Assembly (NCBI RefSeq): GCF_000021945.1
Contig: NC_011831.1
Span: 4,043,353-4,107,352 of the forward strand
Direction: 5' to 3'
Source: Chloroflexus aggregans DSM 9485
GTDB lineage: Bacteria > Chloroflexota > Chloroflexia > Chloroflexales > Chloroflexaceae
DNA: 64,000 nt
Position numbers and translations under genes: made by a program. Positions 35,248 to 49,871 of the stretch are shown in pieces. Under the pieces are notes generated by a model. The model was not told the DNA's origin. It searched no databases and saw only the letters and a program-made list of their open reading frames with translations. The stretch's first letter is position 1. Each line of letters opens with the position of its first letter.

Positions 35248-36174
35248 TCATCCGCGTTGCAACAAGCGGGTTAGGAGTTCGTGAACCAGAGGTTGCCCGC
35301 GTAACTGCTGCCGCCAATTGGTGGGAATGCCTTCGATCCCGTAACGGATCCCGGCAATTCCGCCGGCAACGCACGCCGTCGTGTCGGTGTCGTAGCCAAG
35401 GGCGATAGCGAGACGAACAACGTGAGCGTAGTCGCTGCCTTGCGCTACGGTCCACCGCGCCGAACGGAGTGTGTCGACGACATACCCCTTGCCCTCCCCC
35501 GGTACGAGTTTGTCGGGTTCGATATGGGTTTCCAGTTCGATCCGTGCTTGCCCGTTGCCGTAGATGTCGCGCAGCCGCTTGGTAGCGGTGTTCCACGCAT
35601 CTCCGTCGCCCGCTAATTCGTAGCGCGCCCATAGGCAATAGAGGGCGCAACAGACTTGTGACCGGAGATGACCATGGGTGGGCAGTGATTGCAGATGCGC
35701 ATCGGCGACCAACTCGCGGTCATGACCACGATGCCATAACGCCAGCGGCAAGACCCGCATCAGCGCGCCATTACCGTTGTCGAACTCGCCCGCCGGCCCG
35801 GCGCGGTATGGCGGTACACCGCTCTGCAACGCCCGTATCGCGCGCAGCGTTTGCGAACCTACATCGAAGACCGTTCCGTCAGGTGTGTAGGCTCCCTGCT
35901 CGTACCATGCCTGTATCTTGCGGGCAAAATCGTTCAGATCGAGCCGGTCGCACGTCAGCAACGAATCGAGGAGGGCCAGCGCCAGCGCTCCATCGTCCGA
36001 CCATGTTCCCACCGGGATCGTTGGATGACTGCGTGCAAACCCATCCGGCGGCTGTAAATCGATCGCTGTGATCGGTGGCAATGCTTCCGGTGGATGAAAT
36101 TCGTATGGCACACCTAGGGCATCGCCGATGAGCAGACCGAATAATCCACCTGCAATCCGATCATGCCGATTCAT
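35248..36174 (-). CDS. ADP-ribosylglycohydrolase family protein
   Basis: A 308-residue all-helical hydrolase. It begins DRIAGGLFGLLIGDALGVPYEF, with VGTWSDDGALALALLDSL in place of the usual TDDT metal motif, DNGNGALMRVLPLAL, and the second metal site AIALGYDTDTTACVAGGIAGIRYG. The family removes ADP-ribose from proteins or dinitrogenase reductase (DraG). Substrate is unknown; no nif genes are here. It converges on the glycosyltransferase pair with a 9-base gap. Its ATG at 36174 faces a minisatellite. Confidence 0.9.
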   Translation of the reverse strand: MNRHDRIAGGLFGLLIGDALGVPYEFHPPEALPPITAIDLQPPDGFARSHPTIPVGTWSDDGALALALLDSLLTCDRLDLNDFARKIQAWYEQGAYTPDGTVFDVGSQTLRAIRALQSGVPPYRAGPAGEFDNGNGALMRVLPLALWHRGHDRELVADAHLQSLPTHGHLRSQVCCALYCLWARYELAGDGDAWNTATKRLRDIYGNGQARIELETHIEPDKLVPGEGKGYVVDTLRSARWTVAQGSDYAHVVRLAIALGYDTDTTACVAGGIAGIRYGIEGIPTNWRQQLRGQPLVHELLTRLLQRG

Positions 36175-36190
36175 TGCGGTTGCATCCTTA

Positions 36191-36953
36191 CATCACCGGC
36201 CATATCCCACCCGGTAGGGGCGACCCGGTGGGTCGCCCCATCGCCCCGATGGGTCGCCCACGCATCACCGGCCATATCCCACCCGGTACGGTCGACCCGA
36301 TGGGTCGCCCCATCGCCCCGATGGGTCGCCCACGCATCACCGGCCATATCCCACCCGGTAGGGGCGACCCGGTGGGTCGCCCCATCGCCCCGATGGGTCG
36401 CCCACGTATCACCGGCCATATCCCACCCGGTACGGTCGACCCGGTGGGTCGCCCCATCGCCCCGATGGGTCGCCCACGTATCACCGGCCATATCCCACCC
36501 GGTAGGGGCGACCCGGTGGGTCGCCCCATCGCCCCGATGGGTCGCCCACGCATCACCGGCCATATCCCACCCGGTAGGGGCGACCCGGTGGGTCGCCCCG
36601 TCGCCCCGATGGGTCGCCCACGCATCACCGGCCATATCCCACCCGGTAGGGGCGACCCGGTGGGTCGCCCCATCGCCCCGATGGGTCGCCCACGTATCAC
36701 CGGCCATATCCCACCCGGTAGGGGCGACCCGGTGGGTCGCCCCATCGCCCCGATGGGTCGCCCACGCATCACCGGCCATATCCCACCCGGTAGGGGCGAC
36801 CCGGTGGGTCGCCCCATCGCCCCGATGGGTCGCCCACGCATCACCGGCCATATCCCACCCGGTAGGGGCGACCCGGTGGGTCGCCCCATCGCCCCGATGG
36901 GTCGCCCCATCGCCCCGATGGATCGCCCCATCGCCCCGTCGCCCCGCTGCTGC
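36191..36953. repeat. Minisatellite: ten 72 bp tandem units plus tail
   Basis: Units begin at 36191 and every 72 bases to 36839, each of the form CATCACCGGCCATATCCCAC followed by GGTAGGGGCGACCCGGTGG and GTCGCCCCATCGCCCCGATG. They are nearly identical; units two and four carry GGTACGGTCGACCC instead. Each contains the hairpin GGGGCGACCC-GGT-GGGTCGCCCC. The tail (36911-36953) is a short repeat of the last part. Because 72 is a multiple of three and the unit lacks stops, several frames look open for 200-380 codons; these are not genes. Confidence 0.97.
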
Positions 36954-38381
36954 TTACCCGCGTGCCTGTTCCAGCGTATCGGCAGTCGTGCCTTGCGCAT
37001 CGAGCGCTGCTGCAATCCGTTCGCCCGCTCCAACACCGCTAGCCCACGTCTTCGGGATACCGATCCCACCGCGGTAGCTACCGGTCAATTGCAATGTTGG
37101 ACGCCGCTGTTCGAGCCGTTCGAGGGTTGCAATCCGCTCACGATGACCGAGCGTGTATTGTGCAATTGCATGGTGCCAGCGCGTGACGTGGGTCAGCAGC
37201 GGTTGGCCCCGAATGCCCAACACTTCTTGATTGTCACGGATGGCCGATTCGATCAGCGCCTCTTCGCTCTGTTCGGCCACTTCTGGTCGGATCGCACCAC
37301 CCGACAACGTGATCGTTAAGACACGGTCAGGCGGGGCAACGTGTGGGAAAAGGCTAGACGCCCATAGAATCCCCAAAAACTGCCGACGTTCGCTTGAAGG
37401 GGCTAAAACCCCAAATCCGTTCAGTTCGTGCGAGAGCTGATCGCGGCGAAAACCGAGGTGAACGACGGATACCGGTGCGTATGGGATGCTGCGGAGCGCG
37501 CTCGCTGCCGCCGGATCAAGCGCTTCAACGAGTTCGGCGGCGACGTAGGCCGGTGTCGCGATGATCACACTGCGCGTCGTGATCGTCTCAAGACGGCCTG
37601 TTCCATCAACCGTCACTTCCCAATACGTGCCGAGATCACGCAGGCCGACAGCCCTACGCCCCGTCCAGACATTGCCGGTGCCAAGGGCGCGGGCAATAGC
37701 TCGCGGCCAATCGGCTAATCCGCCTTGAAAACTGAAGGTTCGGCTCCGCATCTTGGGTTCGCTGATAAGCGTTTTTTGCTTCGGACGCCTCAGCATCCCG
37801 CGCACGATACTACCACCGCGCTGCACCGCTTCCCACAGCGATGGGAAGACTGCTGCCGCCGACAGTTGATTGGGATCGCCGGCGTAGACTCCGGCCACAA
37901 ACGGATCGAGCAAGTGAGCAACTGCTTCATGGCCGATCCGTCGGCTGAAGAAAGCGGCAACACTCTCTTCACCGGTAGGTGTACCGATATTGACAAATGG
38001 TTCGCCCAGCACACGCAATTTACCACGCCACGAGAGCAAACGGGTCGTGATCAGTCCCACCGGCGACGAGGGAATCTCAATCGGCGTCCCGTTGATCAAA
38101 ATGTATCGTCGTCTGCCACACCGTGCTGCCGGTCTGATCCGATCGCGCAGACCGAGATCGATCAACTCCTGCCACAGACGCACGTCATTCGTCCCAATCG
38201 TATTTGGCCCGCAGTCGAGTGTGAAACCTTCGGGCGTGGTAATGCTGTGGATCACGCCACCGACCCGATTGGCAGCTTCGATCACCAACACGCGGTACCC
38301 TCGTTTATAGAGGGTATAGGCTGCCGCCAACCCGCCAATACCACCCCCGATCACGACACTGTCGTAGTTTGCCATCATCAT
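36954..38381 (-). CDS. hemY: Protoporphyrinogen oxidase (HemY type)
   Basis: A 475-residue FAD enzyme that oxidises protoporphyrinogen IX. The dinucleotide fold is VVIGGGIGGLAAAYTLYKRG (residues 8-27), followed by ANRVGGVIHSI and GFTLDCGPNTIG; the C-terminal part has LQLTGSYRGGIGIPKTWASGVGAGERIA, the FAD-contacting end. The enzyme is oxygen dependent in other bacteria. ATG 38381 follows GAGGAG by five bases, and two further ATG codons follow. Its stop abuts the minisatellite. It is 9 bases downstream of hemN, forming a hemN-hemY pair for haem and bacteriochlorophyll. Confidence 0.92.
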   Translation of the reverse strand: MMMANYDSVVIGGGIGGLAAAYTLYKRGYRVLVIEAANRVGGVIHSITTPEGFTLDCGPNTIGTNDVRLWQELIDLGLRDRIRPAARCGRRRYILINGTPIEIPSSPVGLITTRLLSWRGKLRVLGEPFVNIGTPTGEESVAAFFSRRIGHEAVAHLLDPFVAGVYAGDPNQLSAAAVFPSLWEAVQRGGSIVRGMLRRPKQKTLISEPKMRSRTFSFQGGLADWPRAIARALGTGNVWTGRRAVGLRDLGTYWEVTVDGTGRLETITTRSVIIATPAYVAAELVEALDPAAASALRSIPYAPVSVVHLGFRRDQLSHELNGFGVLAPSSERRQFLGILWASSLFPHVAPPDRVLTITLSGGAIRPEVAEQSEEALIESAIRDNQEVLGIRGQPLLTHVTRWHHAIAQYTLGHRERIATLERLEQRRPTLQLTGSYRGGIGIPKTWASGVGAGERIAAALDAQGTTADTLEQARG

Positions 38382-40322: not shown

Positions 40323-41591
40323 ATGCGCGTACTTTACATCTTGCCTCACTACAGTCAGTCGGCAATGGGTAATCGCATCCATGCCGAGCTGATTGAGGAG
40401 TGGCGTAACCATGACGTTGATACCGAAGTGCTCAGCTTTTCAGCTTCCCTGCGTCGGCCTACTCGCACCTTTGAAGAAGGAATTGTCGTTCACCGTTTGC
40501 CGGCAAGCGGCTCATTGCCCGCCAAGATCGCCAATACTCTTACTGCCCGTATCTTCCCATACCCTTATCTTGCCAGCTTCATCATAGGCTTCGGGCGCTT
40601 TTTTGCCGAACATACCTACGATCTTTGCCATATCGAGACCGCGTTTCCGCTAGCGTGGGCGGCAGTGCTAGCTGGTAAACGTGTGCCGCCACTTGCTCTG
40701 ACCCTGCCCGGTGCCGATGTCATGGCTGAGCCAGAATTCGACTACGGCTACGCTCGCTTTCGCAGCGTTCGCGCTATCTTACCGATCGTTTTCCGCCGCG
40801 CGTTGGTGATACGAGCCGACTCGCCTCAGATTCGTGAAGCAGCGATCGCGCTTGGCGCTGCGCCCGACAAGGTGAAGGTTATTCCCTACAATATTACGAA
40901 TAGTAGTTTTCCGCCTGTAGGCGAAGATCTTGATGCTTTGCGCGCGCGCAGCCGTGCCGCATTGGTGGCGCGTTACCACCTTGATCCGCGTCGCCCGATT
41001 GTGGTTGGCCTCAACCGGTTGCATCCGTTCAAAGGTATGGCGTACCTTGTTGAAGCCGTGCCTACCGTTCGTGCTGCCGGAATTGAGCCGCAAGTGTTAA
41101 TTGTTGGTCCCAATCGCGCCACGCCGCGTTTTGGTGATTATGGCGCGTTTTTATCGCGACGAGCCGCTGAATTGGGATTGTCTAATCATGTTCTGCTGAC
41201 CGGCGGTGTTCCTCACACCGAAGTGCTGACCCATTTGGCTGGCGCTGATGCAGCAGTGGTTCCGTCAGTCGCCGAGGCGTTCAGCCGGGTCGTCATCGAG
41301 GCATGTGCCGTGGGAACGCCACCAGTTGTCACACGCACAACCGGGGCAAGTGCGTACGTCGCGGCTGCGCGGGCCGGTGTCGTGGTCGAGCCGCGCTCTG
41401 GGCCGGCGATTGGCGCTGCACTGGTTGAGTTGTTAGGGGATCCAGTGAGCTGGCGTGAGTATAGTACGCGCGCTGTTACATTGGCGCTGGCGTTTTCGTC
41501 AGCCCGGATTGCAGCCGATCTGATCGACTTGTACCGTGCGGCAATGGCTTCACGCCAGCCGCTGGCATCGCTCGCAGCACAGGATCGGTAA
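40323..41591 (+). CDS. Glycosyltransferase family 4 protein
   Basis: A 422-residue GT-B enzyme. The N-terminal MRVLYILPHYSQSAMGNRIHAEL is the acceptor domain, and the C-terminal domain has GLNRLHPFKGMAYLVEAV, LTGGVPHTEVLTHLAGADAAVVPSVAEAFSRVVIEACAVGTP, where the EAFSRVVIE segment is the EX7E donor site. It would act at the cytoplasmic face, adding a sugar to a lipid or polysaccharide. It has 47 bases to the next gene, in the same direction. Acceptor is unknown. Confidence 0.85.
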   Translation: MRVLYILPHYSQSAMGNRIHAELIEEWRNHDVDTEVLSFSASLRRPTRTFEEGIVVHRLPASGSLPAKIANTLTARIFPYPYLASFIIGFGRFFAEHTYDLCHIETAFPLAWAAVLAGKRVPPLALTLPGADVMAEPEFDYGYARFRSVRAILPIVFRRALVIRADSPQIREAAIALGAAPDKVKVIPYNITNSSFPPVGEDLDALRARSRAALVARYHLDPRRPIVVGLNRLHPFKGMAYLVEAVPTVRAAGIEPQVLIVGPNRATPRFGDYGAFLSRRAAELGLSNHVLLTGGVPHTEVLTHLAGADAAVVPSVAEAFSRVVIEACAVGTPPVVTRTTGASAYVAAARAGVVVEPRSGPAIGAALVELLGDPVSWREYSTRAVTLALAFSSARIAADLIDLYRAAMASRQPLASLAAQDR

Positions 41592-41638
41592 ATGTTCTGG
41601 CACCAATGTCGCCTGAGTGTATGTCAAGGAGGATCTTC

Positions 41639-42409
41639 ATGAAACGCACGCCTCGTCTACTGCCGTGGGTGGCGATAACCTTCACGCTGATTGCGGTCGT
41701 GGCAGCGCTTTTCTTTGCGCTCCGCCCAGGTCAGGCCGAAGAGGGTGGCCCGCTGTTGCAGTACCCGCCCGAACCGCCGGCGCCGACGATTGGCCCCAAT
41801 CCGACCGTGCCCGCCGGCTTGGCCTCCGGCCCACGCTTTGTCGCCGATTTTACCGCGGCGGATAGCTTGAATGGCTGGCAAATCGTCGATCTCGATTTCA
41901 TCATGCCTGAAGACCGGGCGAATTGGATCGTGGCCGATGGTCGTTTGCAACAGTACTTTGCCGGTGAGTTCAACGACAGCCGCCCGTTCCAGACGGTGGC
42001 GCTCGCGCCCGGTGAGTACACGGATGCGATGGTGCGCGTAAGCTTCTACGATGCGTTTAACGGGGTGGCCGGACTGGTGGCGCGCTATCAGGGGGAGGTT
42101 GGGTACGAAGCGAGCTACTACCGGTTGCGGTTGCTGAAGCATGAGTACGAGGCGACGCCGAAGTACGTGCTGGAAAAGGTGGTGGATGGTGTGGCGACGC
42201 CGCTGGCGACGCTGGAGGGGCCGGGGTTTGCGCCGCGCCAGTGGCACGTGATCGAGTTGGATGTCCGTGGGGGCGCACTGGTGGCGCGGCTCAACGGGAA
42301 GGTGCTCTTGCAGGCGACCGACTCGCAACCGCTGCCGGCAGGCCGGGTGGGGGTCTATTCCCGCGCCCTCGGCGGGATGCTCTTTGATGATTTTCTGGTT
42401 ACTCCGTAA
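41639..42409 (+). CDS. Exported protein with a LamG/DUF1080-like domain, copy 1
   Basis: A 256-residue protein with an uncleaved or signal-type N-terminal helix (MKRTPRLLPWVAITFTLIAVV to about residue 27), a proline-rich linker and a jelly-roll domain: FVADFTAADSLNGWQIVDLDF, WIVADGRLQQYF, YTDAMVRVSFYD, GVAGLVARYQ, and WHVIELDVRGGALVARLNGKVL. This layout is typical of concanavalin-like carbohydrate or surface-binding modules. ATG 41639 has GGAGG. From 41718 the DNA matches copy 2 (45086 onward) base for base. It is followed by a sialidase-like gene 39 bases later. Confidence 0.8.
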   Translation: MKRTPRLLPWVAITFTLIAVVAALFFALRPGQAEEGGPLLQYPPEPPAPTIGPNPTVPAGLASGPRFVADFTAADSLNGWQIVDLDFIMPEDRANWIVADGRLQQYFAGEFNDSRPFQTVALAPGEYTDAMVRVSFYDAFNGVAGLVARYQGEVGYEASYYRLRLLKHEYEATPKYVLEKVVDGVATPLATLEGPGFAPRQWHVIELDVRGGALVARLNGKVLLQATDSQPLPAGRVGVYSRALGGMLFDDFLVTP

Positions 42410-43662
42410 TCGCAACACATCGTAAGGAGATTTCACAGGAGATTGTCCATGACGATACTATCCCGAACCATGCTTGTGCTGCTGACGATGCTGGCGTTGA
42501 TAGCGGTCACGGCACCGATAGGGCTGCCACTAGCAGCTCAGGATACGGTGCGTCTGATCGCTGAGTTCAATATCCCCAACAGCTCATATCTGAAGCAGCC
42601 GAAGGTTGCGACCTTTAAGGACCAGGTCTATGCCTTTGGTATCGCTGATGCTAATAGTAATGCTGGTGGCCGGGCGCGATTATGGACGAAGCGTGAAGCG
42701 GCGCCAGACTTTCCTGCCCCGTTTGAGGTCGGTACAACCACTCAGTATCCGAAGGATCCACTCTATGTCAATGCCGGGATAACGACCACGCCGGCCGGTG
42801 ATGTGATCACAATCTGGGTTGATCAGGCGGCCAATATCATCTACAGCCGCCGACGCGATCCGTCCGGTACCTGGGGGCCGATCGTCGAAGTGACGCGGCG
42901 TGAAATTTTTGCATGGGAGCCGGCGTTGACGGTCGTAACCGGCGGGCCGCAAAATGGCCGCATTATTGCGGTGTGGCGCGATGATGAAGTTGAGAACGCG
43001 GATAATAACGGCATTTATTACACCTTCTCTGACAACAACGGCGCGTCGTGGGTACCGGTGCGGCGCGCCTTTGCGATGAAGGTGTTTCGCACCTCGCCGG
43101 TGTTAGCATCAGGGCCAAATGGCGAAGTGGCGTTGACCTTTATCCGCGATGCTCCGCGCCCAATTCATGTCATGTTGGCCATGTGGACCGGTGATGGCTT
43201 CAGCGTGCCGGTTGATATCAATGTGGGTAGTGATATGAGCTTCACGGATAGTACGGTGGCGATCGATAACGATCGGATTTACGTTGGCTATCGCCATGTT
43301 GATCAAGGGATCTATTATGTTGAAAAGCCCCTGAGCGATGCGCTGAATAACCAACCGTGGCCGCGTGCGACACTCCTGAATGAGCATGGCGATGGCCGGG
43401 TTATGGTTGTTACCGACCGCTTGGGTAATCTGCACATCACATGGATCAGGCGTGCCACCGTGGGTGGCTCGCGTAATCAAAACCGGATCGGCTATGCCGT
43501 CCGTTTAGCCGATGGGCGTTTCTTTGGCCCGATCGAATCGACCAATAACGGCACAGTCTTCAACCCGTGGGCGGCGGCTAGCACCGAGACCGGCATCTAT
43601 CTCCATGCCGTGTATGATGCGTTTAGTGGTGACATACCCATCCCCCGCTATGCGCTCTTCCG
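41718..43662 (+). repeat. 1945 bp direct repeat, copy 1
   Basis: Matches 45086-47030 at a constant offset of 3368 with no difference that I could find. It starts inside the LamG-like gene and ends inside the sialidase-like gene. Outside these limits the flanking sequences are clearly different. Confidence 0.93.
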
Positions 43663-44806
43663 TGCCCCTGGATCGCCGTTTGGTTCTTCACCGTTGATCG
43701 AGGGCGGCGTTGCACGTGTTGGCGGTGATGGTCGCACGACAATGAAAGTGACCTTCCCCGATCTGAGCTCCATTCCGCAGAGTTTGAGCGTGCGCTGGCG
43801 CTGGGGTGCGCCGCCGACCGATACCGAAAATGATTCGGGCGGCTGGGTTTTACTCTCGACGGAGGCGACATCGAGCACCGAATTGACCGTGCCAATCCCT
43901 CCAGCCTTCCTGACAGCGAATGATTGCACTCCTCGCGCACTCTTTACCCAGTTGCGGCGTAATAGCGACAATGTGGTTGAGACAGTTGTCCGCAATGCGG
44001 CGGTGACGATCGATACCACAGTGGTAGCGTCGGTTGAAGTCGGTAATCCAATTGCGATGGATCCGTCAAGCTGGTACGACGGCAACTTTACGGTGCGCGA
44101 TCTCGATCCTCATAGCACGCCGGTGCCACAGGTGATGCTCATGGTGCATGATGGCGGTGATTGTAGCGGTTTGGCTCGCGTGCAGATCGCAAATAATTCG
44201 GCTGCACTGGCATTCAATAGCGACCTCGATGTCGATGGTGATTTGACTGCCATCATTCCGCTGCCCGGTTTTACCTTCTTTCCACCGTCGCCTGATGGCA
44301 ACTACAACGTGGTGGTGCGGGTGTACGACAAGCTCGGTAACTCGCAGACCGTTACCACGACCATCCGGCTCGATCGCACGCCGCCGCAGCTCGCGCTGAG
44401 CGGCAGTGAAGTAATTACTGCAACCGACTCGCCGTTGGGTGATATCTTGCAAGACCTGACATTCGATCTCTCATCAGCCACGATTACCGAAACGAATGGT
44501 ATTCACGGTCTTATGCTTGCAGTGAGTCCCACGCCGGTGACGAGTACGGTCGGGCTGTCGTCACTGCGTTGGATTTTCGCTCCGGCCACTGCGAGCAGTG
44601 GCCGATTTACGGTGTCGTCGTGGAGTATGGCGAACGCTCCCGGTGTGACGATGGCGACAACTAGTGCTACTGAGCAAACGTTCTCTATCTATGCGCTCTT
44701 GATCGATCGGGCCGGAAATATCAGCTCGTTTGATACGGTGCTGGAAACGACGGCGACAAGTACGCTAACTCCAATGCGAACGTATCTGCCGTTGGTGAAT
44801 CGTTGA
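42449..44806 (+). CDS. Exported sialidase-like (BNR) protein, copy 1
   Basis: A 785-residue secreted protein with a signal helix (MTILSRTMLVLLTMLALIAV...) and a beta-propeller-like part with repeats of SDNNGASWVPV, DRLGNLHITWIRRA and YSRRRDPSGTWGP, the kind of Asp-box/BNR repeats of sialidases. C-terminal residues from about 405 form beta-rich modules (RWRWGAPPTDTENDSGGW, then YDKLGNSQTVTTTIRLDRTPP) and end in MRTYLPLVNR. ATG 42449 follows AGGAG. Catalytic residues of a sialidase are not evident, so it may be a surface or adhesin protein. It overlaps the duplicated block up to 43662. Confidence 0.78.
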   Translation: MTILSRTMLVLLTMLALIAVTAPIGLPLAAQDTVRLIAEFNIPNSSYLKQPKVATFKDQVYAFGIADANSNAGGRARLWTKREAAPDFPAPFEVGTTTQYPKDPLYVNAGITTTPAGDVITIWVDQAANIIYSRRRDPSGTWGPIVEVTRREIFAWEPALTVVTGGPQNGRIIAVWRDDEVENADNNGIYYTFSDNNGASWVPVRRAFAMKVFRTSPVLASGPNGEVALTFIRDAPRPIHVMLAMWTGDGFSVPVDINVGSDMSFTDSTVAIDNDRIYVGYRHVDQGIYYVEKPLSDALNNQPWPRATLLNEHGDGRVMVVTDRLGNLHITWIRRATVGGSRNQNRIGYAVRLADGRFFGPIESTNNGTVFNPWAAASTETGIYLHAVYDAFSGDIPIPRYALFRAPGSPFGSSPLIEGGVARVGGDGRTTMKVTFPDLSSIPQSLSVRWRWGAPPTDTENDSGGWVLLSTEATSSTELTVPIPPAFLTANDCTPRALFTQLRRNSDNVVETVVRNAAVTIDTTVVASVEVGNPIAMDPSSWYDGNFTVRDLDPHSTPVPQVMLMVHDGGDCSGLARVQIANNSAALAFNSDLDVDGDLTAIIPLPGFTFFPPSPDGNYNVVVRVYDKLGNSQTVTTTIRLDRTPPQLALSGSEVITATDSPLGDILQDLTFDLSSATITETNGIHGLMLAVSPTPVTSTVGLSSLRWIFAPATASSGRFTVSSWSMANAPGVTMATTSATEQTFSIYALLIDRAGNISSFDTVLETTATSTLTPMRTYLPLVNR

Positions 44807-44830
44807 CGCTGTTCCCTCGTCTGGCTAACC

Positions 44831-44870
44831 GGACTGCTACTCATATTGATAGTAGCAGTCCTTCTTTTTT
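44831..44870 (+). terminator. Intrinsic terminator after copy 1
   Basis: GGACTGCTACT pairs perfectly with AGTAGCAGTCC (11 base pairs), followed by TTCTTTTTT. It ends the first module, 24 bases after its stop. Confidence 0.9.
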
Positions 44871-45006
44871 CGCTTCGCTCCCAAAATTTTGCAAAAAATG
44901 TTACCGTTTTTGGCCCATTTTTGTCGTATCCTATCTGTACACCATGGTGCCGGTAGCATTGTACAATTCAACTACCTTGGATCGACATCGACAAGGAGCT
45001 TCTCCA

Positions 45007-45777
45007 ATGCAACAACGTCAATTATCTCTTCTGCGCCTATCGCTTACCATGATCCTTGTCGCAATCGTAGGCAGAATCTGGCTTTCGCTCCGCCCAGGTC
45101 AGGCCGAAGAGGGTGGCCCGCTGTTGCAGTACCCGCCCGAACCGCCGGCGCCGACGATTGGCCCCAATCCGACCGTGCCCGCCGGCTTGGCCTCCGGCCC
45201 ACGCTTTGTCGCCGATTTTACCGCGGCGGATAGCTTGAATGGCTGGCAAATCGTCGATCTCGATTTCATCATGCCTGAAGACCGGGCGAATTGGATCGTG
45301 GCCGATGGTCGTTTGCAACAGTACTTTGCCGGTGAGTTCAACGACAGCCGCCCGTTCCAGACGGTGGCGCTCGCGCCCGGTGAGTACACGGATGCGATGG
45401 TGCGCGTAAGCTTCTACGATGCGTTTAACGGGGTGGCCGGACTGGTGGCGCGCTATCAGGGGGAGGTTGGGTACGAAGCGAGCTACTACCGGTTGCGGTT
45501 GCTGAAGCATGAGTACGAGGCGACGCCGAAGTACGTGCTGGAAAAGGTGGTGGATGGTGTGGCGACGCCGCTGGCGACGCTGGAGGGGCCGGGGTTTGCG
45601 CCGCGCCAGTGGCACGTGATCGAGTTGGATGTCCGTGGGGGCGCACTGGTGGCGCGGCTCAACGGGAAGGTGCTCTTGCAGGCGACCGACTCGCAACCGC
45701 TGCCGGCAGGCCGGGTGGGGGTCTATTCCCGCGCCCTCGGCGGGATGCTCTTTGATGATTTTCTGGTTACTCCGTAA
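45007..45777 (+). CDS. Exported protein with a LamG/DUF1080-like domain, copy 2
   Basis: A 256-residue protein, the same as copy 1 after residue 27 but with a different N-terminal helix (MQQRQLSLLRLSLTMILVAIVG). ATG 45007 has AAGGAG eight bases upstream. The signal region is thus divergent while the mature part is apparently identical at DNA level. It has its own upstream region after the terminator at 44831. Confidence 0.8.
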   Translation: MQQRQLSLLRLSLTMILVAIVGRIWLSLRPGQAEEGGPLLQYPPEPPAPTIGPNPTVPAGLASGPRFVADFTAADSLNGWQIVDLDFIMPEDRANWIVADGRLQQYFAGEFNDSRPFQTVALAPGEYTDAMVRVSFYDAFNGVAGLVARYQGEVGYEASYYRLRLLKHEYEATPKYVLEKVVDGVATPLATLEGPGFAPRQWHVIELDVRGGALVARLNGKVLLQATDSQPLPAGRVGVYSRALGGMLFDDFLVTP

Positions 45778-47030
45778 TCGCAACACATCGTAAGGAGATT
45801 TCACAGGAGATTGTCCATGACGATACTATCCCGAACCATGCTTGTGCTGCTGACGATGCTGGCGTTGATAGCGGTCACGGCACCGATAGGGCTGCCACTA
45901 GCAGCTCAGGATACGGTGCGTCTGATCGCTGAGTTCAATATCCCCAACAGCTCATATCTGAAGCAGCCGAAGGTTGCGACCTTTAAGGACCAGGTCTATG
46001 CCTTTGGTATCGCTGATGCTAATAGTAATGCTGGTGGCCGGGCGCGATTATGGACGAAGCGTGAAGCGGCGCCAGACTTTCCTGCCCCGTTTGAGGTCGG
46101 TACAACCACTCAGTATCCGAAGGATCCACTCTATGTCAATGCCGGGATAACGACCACGCCGGCCGGTGATGTGATCACAATCTGGGTTGATCAGGCGGCC
46201 AATATCATCTACAGCCGCCGACGCGATCCGTCCGGTACCTGGGGGCCGATCGTCGAAGTGACGCGGCGTGAAATTTTTGCATGGGAGCCGGCGTTGACGG
46301 TCGTAACCGGCGGGCCGCAAAATGGCCGCATTATTGCGGTGTGGCGCGATGATGAAGTTGAGAACGCGGATAATAACGGCATTTATTACACCTTCTCTGA
46401 CAACAACGGCGCGTCGTGGGTACCGGTGCGGCGCGCCTTTGCGATGAAGGTGTTTCGCACCTCGCCGGTGTTAGCATCAGGGCCAAATGGCGAAGTGGCG
46501 TTGACCTTTATCCGCGATGCTCCGCGCCCAATTCATGTCATGTTGGCCATGTGGACCGGTGATGGCTTCAGCGTGCCGGTTGATATCAATGTGGGTAGTG
46601 ATATGAGCTTCACGGATAGTACGGTGGCGATCGATAACGATCGGATTTACGTTGGCTATCGCCATGTTGATCAAGGGATCTATTATGTTGAAAAGCCCCT
46701 GAGCGATGCGCTGAATAACCAACCGTGGCCGCGTGCGACACTCCTGAATGAGCATGGCGATGGCCGGGTTATGGTTGTTACCGACCGCTTGGGTAATCTG
46801 CACATCACATGGATCAGGCGTGCCACCGTGGGTGGCTCGCGTAATCAAAACCGGATCGGCTATGCCGTCCGTTTAGCCGATGGGCGTTTCTTTGGCCCGA
46901 TCGAATCGACCAATAACGGCACAGTCTTCAACCCGTGGGCGGCGGCTAGCACCGAGACCGGCATCTATCTCCATGCCGTGTATGATGCGTTTAGTGGTGA
47001 CATACCCATCCCCCGCTATGCGCTCTTCCG
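45086..47030 (+). repeat. 1945 bp direct repeat, copy 2
   Basis: Partner of 41718-43662. Copy 2 differs from copy 1 immediately after 47030 (CGCGCCGGG against TGCCCCTGG). Confidence 0.93.
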
Positions 47031-48165
47031 CGCGCCGGGTGGGTTCCCCGACTCACCACCACTCATTCAAAACGGTGCCCCAATCATTGGTGGCGTGGGC
47101 ATAAGCACGGTGAATGTCACCTTCCCCAATCTCCCGACGACGAACCTTCCCGATCAGGTGCGCTGGCGGTGGGGTGCGCCACCGACCGATACCGAGAACG
47201 ACTCGGGTGGTTGGCAACCGTTTGCCCCGACCGGTCCGACCAGTGTCTTGACCGTCCCCATTCCGGCGGCATTGCAAACCGACATCGGCTGTGTCGAACG
47301 GGTGTTGTATACCCAGCTCCGTCGCTCGACCGACGGCTTGGCCGGTCAGGTTCAGGCTGATGGTGTGATCATCGACACATCTGTCTTGGGTGGTATCGTG
47401 ATAGCCAATCCCTTCTCCCGCTGGAAGACTTCACCGTTTACCTCGGTGACACTCGCCGATCTGATCGGTGAGGGCGGCGCGAGCGATGGACACCCCGATT
47501 ATACCCGTGTGCCGGCGCTCTTCGTCGAAGCGCGTAGTCTCGGTGATTGCAGCGGGTTACAACGCTTGGCCCTTGCCCCCAACACGGCAGCGTTGAATAG
47601 CGTGAATAATCTGGAGATTAGCGGTAGTCGGTTTGCCAACGTGCTGCCCTATCCCGGTACCATCAGTGAAGGCCCCATGCCGGTTGCTGTGCAAATGCGT
47701 GACGCCCTTGGAAATACCATGCAAGCCACGCGCACCTTGACCTACGATGTCACACCACCGGTGCTGAATGGTGGTAACCTCCAGGCACTCGCCATTCCCG
47801 CTGCGCCAACGATCTTGGTTGAACTGCAATTTACCAGTCTCAGTGTGACCGATAACCTCTACCCCGGTCGTGGGTTCTGGGGAGTGTGGCTGGCCAATAG
47901 CCGAACCCCGGTCGCCAATCCTGCCGCTGATCCCACTCTGGTGTGGGTACCGGTCGAAGTGCCGGGTGATAGCAACAATTTTAGTATCGTCTGGAGTCCG
48001 GTAAGTGGGTTGCCGGAAGCGCAACGCACACCGGGAACCTATTACATCTATGCCCGCGTGCTCGATGGAGCCGGTAATCCGAGTGCGACGGTGTTGCCGG
48101 TAACAACTATCACACTTGATCAAGTGACATTCCCGCAGGTATTCCTCCCAATGGTGCAGCGGTAG
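45817..48165 (+). CDS. Exported sialidase-like (BNR) protein, copy 2
   Basis: A 782-residue protein, identical to copy 1 for about the first 405 residues. The C-terminal half is homologous but diverged: it shares RWRWGAPPTDTENDSGGW and similar modules and ends in VFLPMVQR. The shared C-terminal end form (LPxV-x-R) could be a surface-retention or secretion signal. Divergence of only the C-terminal half suggests different surface partners, with the propeller kept uniform. Confidence 0.78.
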   Translation: MTILSRTMLVLLTMLALIAVTAPIGLPLAAQDTVRLIAEFNIPNSSYLKQPKVATFKDQVYAFGIADANSNAGGRARLWTKREAAPDFPAPFEVGTTTQYPKDPLYVNAGITTTPAGDVITIWVDQAANIIYSRRRDPSGTWGPIVEVTRREIFAWEPALTVVTGGPQNGRIIAVWRDDEVENADNNGIYYTFSDNNGASWVPVRRAFAMKVFRTSPVLASGPNGEVALTFIRDAPRPIHVMLAMWTGDGFSVPVDINVGSDMSFTDSTVAIDNDRIYVGYRHVDQGIYYVEKPLSDALNNQPWPRATLLNEHGDGRVMVVTDRLGNLHITWIRRATVGGSRNQNRIGYAVRLADGRFFGPIESTNNGTVFNPWAAASTETGIYLHAVYDAFSGDIPIPRYALFRAPGGFPDSPPLIQNGAPIIGGVGISTVNVTFPNLPTTNLPDQVRWRWGAPPTDTENDSGGWQPFAPTGPTSVLTVPIPAALQTDIGCVERVLYTQLRRSTDGLAGQVQADGVIIDTSVLGGIVIANPFSRWKTSPFTSVTLADLIGEGGASDGHPDYTRVPALFVEARSLGDCSGLQRLALAPNTAALNSVNNLEISGSRFANVLPYPGTISEGPMPVAVQMRDALGNTMQATRTLTYDVTPPVLNGGNLQALAIPAAPTILVELQFTSLSVTDNLYPGRGFWGVWLANSRTPVANPAADPTLVWVPVEVPGDSNNFSIVWSPVSGLPEAQRTPGTYYIYARVLDGAGNPSATVLPVTTITLDQVTFPQVFLPMVQR

Positions 48166-48188: not shown

Positions 48189-48231
48189 CAACAGATGGAC
48201 GCTATCATGGTGTCCATCTGTTGACATTTTT
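48189..48231 (+). terminator. Intrinsic terminator after copy 2
   Basis: CAACAGATGGAC pairs with GTCCATCTGTTG (12 base pairs, 11-base loop), followed by ACATTTTT. Confidence 0.8.
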
Positions 48232-48371
48232 GCTGCCTGCAGTGCAGCGTTGGTGATGATTCGTCGTACAATAGCAAACGAGTTGCTATTACCGTACTAC
48301 CGGCGTCACCAAGCTGTGTGTTTACCAGACTGTCCTTATTCGTTTTTGTTTTGTTCTTGTTAAAGGACTGT

Positions 48372-49871
48372 ATGCCAACCTTCGTTCGTACTCGGCTCGT
48401 GAGATGGATGGAACCGATACGCACGTTCTTGACGGGGCGCGAGTTTGGGCCATTCGTGATCGTGTTGGTCTTTGTCGTGATCTTGCCTATCAGCCTACCA
48501 CGCATTGCGCTGAGCGATGAGGTACAGTATTACGCCTATCTGCGCTCGCTCTACTTTGATCACGATCTCGATTTTTATAATGAGTATCAACACTTTGCCA
48601 CAATCGGGCTACAACGCAACGATCCGGCGGTATTCAACGCCCTGCTGCGCCCCGATGCTGCCAACCCCAACCCGGTGACCGGCAAACTGCGCAACGTTGC
48701 CCCCGTTGGTTCGGCAATTCTTTGGTTACCCGGCTTTTTCCTGGCCGATGTATGGGTGCAGGTGGCGAACACGTTCGGTGCGGAGATAGCGCGTGATGGT
48801 TTCAGTCCGCCCTACCTTACTGCCGTTTGCTTCATGTCGGCGCTGTATAGTTTAGCCGGCCTACTTCTGACCTACCGGCTCGCACGTATCTACACCGGTC
48901 AGTTACCGGCTTTGCTGGCTACACTCACTATCTTTCTCGCTACTCCGCTGGTCTTCTATACCTATCTCGCCATGGCGTGGTCGCATGCCAATGGATTTTT
49001 TTTGTTTGCCCTCTTTCTCACGATCTGGCTCCGTGGGCGTGAGGGGAACATCGGCCAAAGTGATGGGCGACGGCATTGGAGTGTCTGGCTTGCCTTGGGT
49101 ATTGTTGCCGGATTAATGGTTATGACCCGTGAGCAGTTGGGGTTGCTCTTAATCATTCCGGCATTCGAGGCGCTGGCGGCCTATATTGGGGCATTGCGCC
49201 GCCGGCAATGGGCGGTGATGCGTGAGTTGATTGCCGGCCATGCCGTGTTTGTCGGGGTTTTCATACTGGCGCTGACGCCACAACTGGCTGCATATTGGGT
49301 GCTCAACGGCCGACTCGGACCATCAACCACGGTGGGCAGTAAGTTGGCGGTGGTGAATCTTGGCCCGTTTCCGCTCCTTGTTAGCCCCCGCTTTTTCGAT
49401 ACCCTCCTCGATCCTGCTCATGGTGCGTTCCTGTGGAGTCCGATCCTCGTTGTCGCCCTCATCGGACTCCTCTGGCTCTTTTGGCGTGATGGTCCGTTAG
49501 CGTTACTTCTTTTGACCGGTTTTCTGGCTCAAGTCTATATCAACGGTGCCTTCGGCACTACGTGGCATCTGAGTGGCTCATTCGGGTTTCGGCGTCTCAT
49601 TGAGTGTACGCCGATCTTCACCCTCGGATTGGCAGCATTGATCGCTTGGCTTCAGTCGCGGGTGGGTTGGAAACCATTGCTGATCGGTTCACTTATTTTC
49701 GTCGCGTGGAATGTGGGGTTAATTGCTCAGTGGACATTTCTTCGCACCGAGTTGCGGAAGGGGCTGATCTGGGAGGGAATGCTGTATTATCAATTACAAG
49801 TTCCGCTCCAGATTCTCTTGCGGCTCTCCGATATTCTGTTCAATCGCTGTCGCTTGATCATCAATTGCTGA
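48372..49871 (+). CDS. Polytopic membrane protein, probable GT39/PMT-like glycosyltransferase
   Basis: A 499-residue protein with about ten membrane helices. After the first helix (FGPFVIVLVFVVILPISL) comes RIALSDEVQYYAYLRSLYFDHDLDF, an acidic outer-loop motif like that of PMT and ArnT glycosyltransferases. GLMVMTREQLGLLLIIPA and AFLWSPILVVALIGLLW follow. It would transfer a lipid-linked sugar at the outer face. ATG 48372 has AAAGGA; a non-ATG upstream start at 48318 is possible. Substrate is unknown. Confidence 0.65.
   Translation: MPTFVRTRLVRWMEPIRTFLTGREFGPFVIVLVFVVILPISLPRIALSDEVQYYAYLRSLYFDHDLDFYNEYQHFATIGLQRNDPAVFNALLRPDAANPNPVTGKLRNVAPVGSAILWLPGFFLADVWVQVANTFGAEIARDGFSPPYLTAVCFMSALYSLAGLLLTYRLARIYTGQLPALLATLTIFLATPLVFYTYLAMAWSHANGFFLFALFLTIWLRGREGNIGQSDGRRHWSVWLALGIVAGLMVMTREQLGLLLIIPAFEALAAYIGALRRRQWAVMRELIAGHAVFVGVFILALTPQLAAYWVLNGRLGPSTTVGSKLAVVNLGPFPLLVSPRFFDTLLDPAHGAFLWSPILVVALIGLLWLFWRDGPLALLLLTGFLAQVYINGAFGTTWHLSGSFGFRRLIECTPIFTLGLAALIAWLQSRVGWKPLLIGSLIFVAWNVGLIAQWTFLRTELRKGLIWEGMLYYQLQVPLQILLRLSDILFNRCRLIINC

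Follow-up and report, generated by a model that had tools for sequence, protein, structure and literature searches.

Two tandem copies of a two-gene unit (lec and prop) in the photosynthetic bacterium Chloroflexus aggregans DSM 9485 share a middle segment that is identical to the last base, and the sequences on either side of that segment are distinct between the copies and conserved by position in other species. Very probably, this pattern results from recurrent recombination between old tandem copies, in which the lec-propeller segment of copy 1 overwrote that of copy 2; this reading comes from comparison of sequences. The features of the locus, which lies in a stretch of 64,000 nucleotides (the window), are collected in Table 1.

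The identical blocks and the genes that carry them

An earlier note had claimed that two 1945 bp blocks are identical at constant offset. Base-level comparison bears this out, since the blocks form a maximal exact match of 1,945 out of 1,945 bases with an offset of 3368, and their ends are abrupt. The length alone excludes chance. On the 5' side, the identity of 60-bp windows drops to chance level within ~60 bp. On the 3' side it stays at ~53-67% for ~220 bp, where the homologous tails begin, and then also falls to chance. Each block extends from codon 27 of lec, just past the membrane anchor, across the gap between the genes to codon 407 of prop. The single-contig genome (4,684,931 bases) contains these two copies only, and a search of the whole genome found no third copy of the block, lec, core or tail. 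Further cassettes of C-terminal modules, which the earlier note had proposed to look for, are thus absent from this genome.

Table 1. Features of the tandem lec-prop locus (positions are those of the window).
Feature	Position	Strand	Evidence
GT4-type glycosyltransferase, conserved left neighbour	40323..41591	+	Pfam Glycos_transf_1, E 2e-26
lec1, secreted protein with a membrane anchor and a weakly matching 3-keto-disaccharide-hydrolase/ConA-like domain	41639..42409	+	PF06439, E 1.5e-5; orthologues
Identical block copy 1, putative donor	41718..43662	+	exact match; core groups with type-1 cores
prop1, secreted beta-propeller (to residue ~407) with Ig-like tail type 1	42449..44806	+	AF2 model; VIA-align/Foldseek propeller matches
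Tail of type 1, specific to copy 1	43663..44806	+	identity to position-1 tails
Stem-loop then T-run between copies 1 and 2	44831..44861	+	11-bp stem, z -3.33; kept in C. islandicus
lec2, ectodomain as lec1, N-terminal anchor different	45007..45777	+	body identical to lec1
Identical block copy 2, putative recipient	45086..47030	+	exact match; flanks type 2
prop2, propeller identical to prop1, Ig-like tail different	45817..48165	+	exact match; NF053834 match
Tail of type 2, specific to copy 2	47031..48165	+	identity to position-2 tails
Terminator-like hairpin after prop2	48189..48223	+	16-pair stem
PMT_2-type glycosyltransferase, right neighbour	48318..49871	+	PF13231, E 1.6e-6

The lec proteins consist of an N-terminal membrane anchor, an LRPGQAEEGG motif and a PF06439-like domain whose scores (25.6 and 24.9 bits) lie under the gathering cutoff of 26.8; their structure model is poor (pLDDT 50). 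Translation of lec1 is placed at the ATG that follows AAGGAGG, the longest ORF beginning at 41606. For prop1, an AF2 model built from 11 sequences (pLDDT 78.9) predicts a beta-propeller at residues ~34-411 followed by Ig-like strands. A PDB sequence search gave no matches; the best structural matches from VIA-align and Foldseek are the propellers of CylK, the PLL/PHL lectins and a PL27 lyase. The predicted structure and these fold matches are in keeping with the constant propeller proposed earlier, as the shared block includes it. The prop1 protein ends in TYLPLVNR and prop2 in VFLPMVQR, both of them YLP-like motifs; prop2 scores 12.0 bits against NF053834 (curated cutoff 10) but with an E value of 0.18, and prop1 is not among the matches listed.

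The 3' junction of the tract sits in the RYALFRAPG codons, which are common to both types of prop gene. To the right of it, copy 2 continues with type-2 sequence, CGCGCGCCGGGT, which copy 2 of C. islandicus also has. The end of the tract coincides with the last predicted propeller strand (398-407), and a tract in G054, a genome of another genus, stops at the same core/tail junction.

Turning to the surroundings, the left glycosyltransferase is also a neighbour in G003, G006, G007, G001, G004 and G005, and the PMT_2-type glycosyltransferase also adjoins the pair in G006 and a unit in G004. In the latter genome, two contigs each carry a glycosyltransferase-lec-prop unit with a type-2-like propeller (L052 on contig C19, 2301-6798; L051 on contig C93, 713-4377), which suggests a duplication of all three genes as one unit. 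To judge from its sequence, the hairpin between copies 1 and 2 is a probable intrinsic terminator; a strong hairpin with a T-run in this position suggests that the two units are probably transcribed apart. Elsewhere in the window, a tandem array at 36163-37000, between ADP-ribosylglycohydrolase-like and protoporphyrinogen-oxidase-like genes, holds ~11 repeats of 72 bp; those in the middle match each other at 94-97%. Several frames are open on both strands, and the repeat is probably a non-coding minisatellite.

Age of the tandem and probable direction of copying

The order glycosyltransferase, lec1, prop1, lec2, prop2 is common to G003, G006 and G007, the last being Chloroflexus islandicus isl-2; most of the comparison genomes are drafts. 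Compared with these three genomes, tail 1 of the window has 71-77% identity with position-1 tails and 38-41% with position-2 tails; for tail 2 the figures are 70-75% with position-2 tails and 35-38% with position-1 tails. Likewise, the 280 bases 5' of the copy-2 block, including the lec2 anchor, have ~90% DNA identity to the corresponding stretch of C. islandicus and do not resemble the region before lec1. Since the tails and the region before lec2 are orthologous by position, the duplication is ancient and the middle alone is young. Tandem pairs with both tail types reach other genera of the family. The tail tree groups by position, with both tail types supported 100/100 within the genus; a family-wide position-2 tail clade is weakly supported (69/31) and is not rejected by the tail alignment. 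The earlier view that a simple recent duplication does not explain the locus therefore stands. The accompanying proposal of a variable, diversifying tail does not, as each tail belongs to one of two orthologous, conserved types, with 70-77% identity to relatives.

The propeller cores suggest which copy was overwritten. Within each of G003, G006 and G007, the two cores share 43-47% identity, and cores of the same type share 72-79% across these species. The window core, in both copies, is 53-54% identical to type-1 cores and 38-42% to type 2, and the core tree places the identical pair inside type 1. Because both window cores have the same sequence and fall within type 1, the copy-1 core appears to have replaced a type-2 core in copy 2. 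Copying from copy 1 to copy 2 is thus the likely direction, given the type-1 similarity of a core with a long branch.

That branch is a separate observation. The window core (42449-43662, 45817-47030) has a branch ~4x longer than the type-1 cores of other Chloroflexus, which is not so for the tails. The core may have been imported before or during copying, and its donor could lie outside the genome; among 158 genomes of the class and the genome collection, no donor closer than the type-1 cores (54-57%) was found. At silent sites the core has a lower identity than tail 1 (36% and 61%, p 4e-5); this was considered as proof of import and rejected, since neighbouring genes are at 41-50% and the core is therefore near background. 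The parts that are unusually alike between the window genome and C. islandicus are the end of tail 1, the intergenic region and lec. Protein identity is what makes an import of the core possible. Over 44200-45085 and the equivalent L082 stretch, the second half of tail 1 has 72% fourfold identity to C. islandicus (neighbouring genes 41-50%) and the intergenic stretch with the lec2 anchor has ~90% DNA identity, and the excess likeness of the two genomes here suggests either interspecies exchange or strong constraint.

Recurrence in relatives and rival explanations

Homogenisation of the pair extends beyond the window genome. The lec bodies within a genome are 100% identical as proteins in G007, 98% in G006 and 94% in G003, as against 70-85% between species. 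At fourfold sites the within-genome identity of lec is 100% in the window, 91% in G007, 94% in G006 and 65% in G003, compared with 34-64% between Chloroflexus genomes. The lec paralogues within a genome are therefore more alike at silent sites than orthologues between genomes, and selection at the protein level is no explanation for their likeness. Within Chloroflexus the lec tree groups by genome. The tracts of G003, G006 and G007 cover lec only, with the same 5' edge after the anchor and an end at the end of the gene; identities in the same segment of relatives are graded (~86%, 95-100% and 99%). In contigs of G054, lec is ~99% and the core ~85% identical between copies, with tails of two different types, and this lec and core tract is, on the evidence of its sequence, a separate and independent event. 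Trees indicate that G012 has its own pairing of lec and core. Overall, the lec body is the part most often homogenised, and the propeller joins in the window genome and G054.

The flanking tails keep the older position-based phylogeny while the core and lec trees reject a position-2 clade. For the core alignment, rejection has p 1e-41, and p 2.7e-6 in a reduced set that leaves out the rows of the window and genus g6 (G054, G012 and two related genomes); for lec, p is 1.5e-4, and 1e-85 in a subset. Rejection by the reduced core set points to an earlier event in the Chloroflexus stem. Since genus g5 keeps both lec and core by position, homogenisation is not inevitable. Together with the position-orthologous flanks, these recurrent tracts support the earlier suggestion that the shared core undergoes conversion.

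In the proposed mechanism, a unit of two genes was duplicated in tandem long ago. Its first gene, lec, would code for a membrane-anchored ConA-like secreted protein; its second, prop, for a secreted beta-propeller protein whose Ig-like tail is followed by a C-terminal motif of the YLP sorting type. The direct copies have since very probably undergone homologous recombination, through pairing in the almost identical lec genes, so that sequence was repeatedly carried from one copy to the other. Here the last such event very probably began at lec codon 27, crossed the intergenic gap, took in the complete propeller and stopped in the RYALFRAPG codons. Since the anchors, upstream region and tails stay private to each copy, the two resulting proteins would share their head and differ in their tails. 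The identity, the age of the tandem, the position-orthology of the flanks and the recurrence in other genomes are demonstrated at the level of sequence. RecA-type conversion, as opposed to unequal exchange and subsequent deletion with the same product, is what we infer, as are a surface location of the products and selection for matched heads.

Unequal sister-chromosome exchange is a possible but less likely route. A crossover between lec1 and lec2 would give rise to a short-lived third unit, and the old type-2 core would then be lost in another recombination where the propeller ends, leaving the product of one conversion tract. Crossing over is feasible for direct repeats separated by 3.4 kb, and the draft G005 has a self-overlapping contig and a lec-to-type-2-core join that resemble excision or deletion products. 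However, two events are needed, and the contig has a 54-N gap inside lec and ~2.7x coverage vs 4.9x as given in the record titles, making a scaffolding artefact likely. This contig, C143 (L083 / L049, 1-3685), has 3,685 bases, ends that overlap by 363 bases (99.7%) and the layout tail1-anchor2-lec-core1-tail1, with the look of either an excised circle or a scaffolding artefact. Because of the N gap, the G005 contigs were set aside as evidence of excision or deletion.

It is very improbable that assembly merged middles that really differ. Zero differences over 1,945 bp, in repeats long enough to trouble short-read assembly, would fit such an artefact, but the genome is a single contig with distinct sequence on both sides of each copy. 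Relatives also speak against it, since their identities in the same segment are graded: C. islandicus has identical lec protein bodies with 91% fourfold identity on one contig, and the lec fourfold identities of G006 and G003 are 94% and 65%. Two further readings can hardly be credited: a recent duplication of the whole unit with rapid divergence of tails and anchors fits the tandem layout but not the separate orthologues of both tails, anchor 2 and the lec2 upstream region in other species and genera, and purifying selection on protein or RNA fits the well-conserved lec protein but not the identity of fourfold sites and the gene gap, which are near saturation between species.

Significance and comparison with known systems

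One tentative and rather doubtful idea is that domain-aligned endpoints reflect selection, with matched lec-propeller heads being required, perhaps because they co-assemble or bind one glycan, and tails and anchors placing the units at different sites. If this were true, conversion that equalises heads and spares tails would have persisted for as long as the family has existed, and the long-branched window core would be a replaced head that spread to both units. The locus lends itself to a test of what sets conversion endpoints, homology or selection acting on protein modules. In a photosynthetic bacterium that is not a pathogen, it preserves a clean record of natural segmental gene conversion, holding tracts of several ages in sister species and the same propeller-end stop in two genera. 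It also draws attention to a secreted-protein pair of mat-forming Chloroflexus that is seemingly unstudied, as a literature search found no paper on the lec-prop locus.

Among known systems, the homA/homB and babA/babB genes of Helicobacter pylori have one segment that clusters by strain through intragenomic conversion and another that clusters by gene (PMC2795765), a segment-wise concerted evolution like that of the Chloroflexus locus. Those are single adhesin-type genes with strain-level polymorphism, whereas the Chloroflexus pair is a tandem two-gene unit with a two-gene tract, a domain-boundary endpoint, a time scale from genus to family, and private parts that are conserved and not polymorphic. 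For the duplicate tuf genes of Salmonella, conversion between duplicates is reported, with tracts bounded by homology and with tract kinetics (PMC5485169); there whole genes are homogenised, unlike the Chloroflexus pair, where flanks and tails stay private. Cassette-fed antigenic variation needs an archive of partial or silent copies, and since this genome is without any, the locus falls outside its definition. With respect to fold, the predicted prop core resembles the seven-bladed propellers of the PLL/PHL lectins, the PL27 rhamnose-glucuronate lyase and the CylK domain (VIA-align Z 28-32, ~300-347 residues aligned, rmsd 2.8-3.8, 10-14% identity), to which prop adds Ig-like tails and a YLP-type C-terminus. 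The process is of a known kind; what is new is the locus, the phylum, the two-gene tract and the recurrent domain-aligned endpoint.
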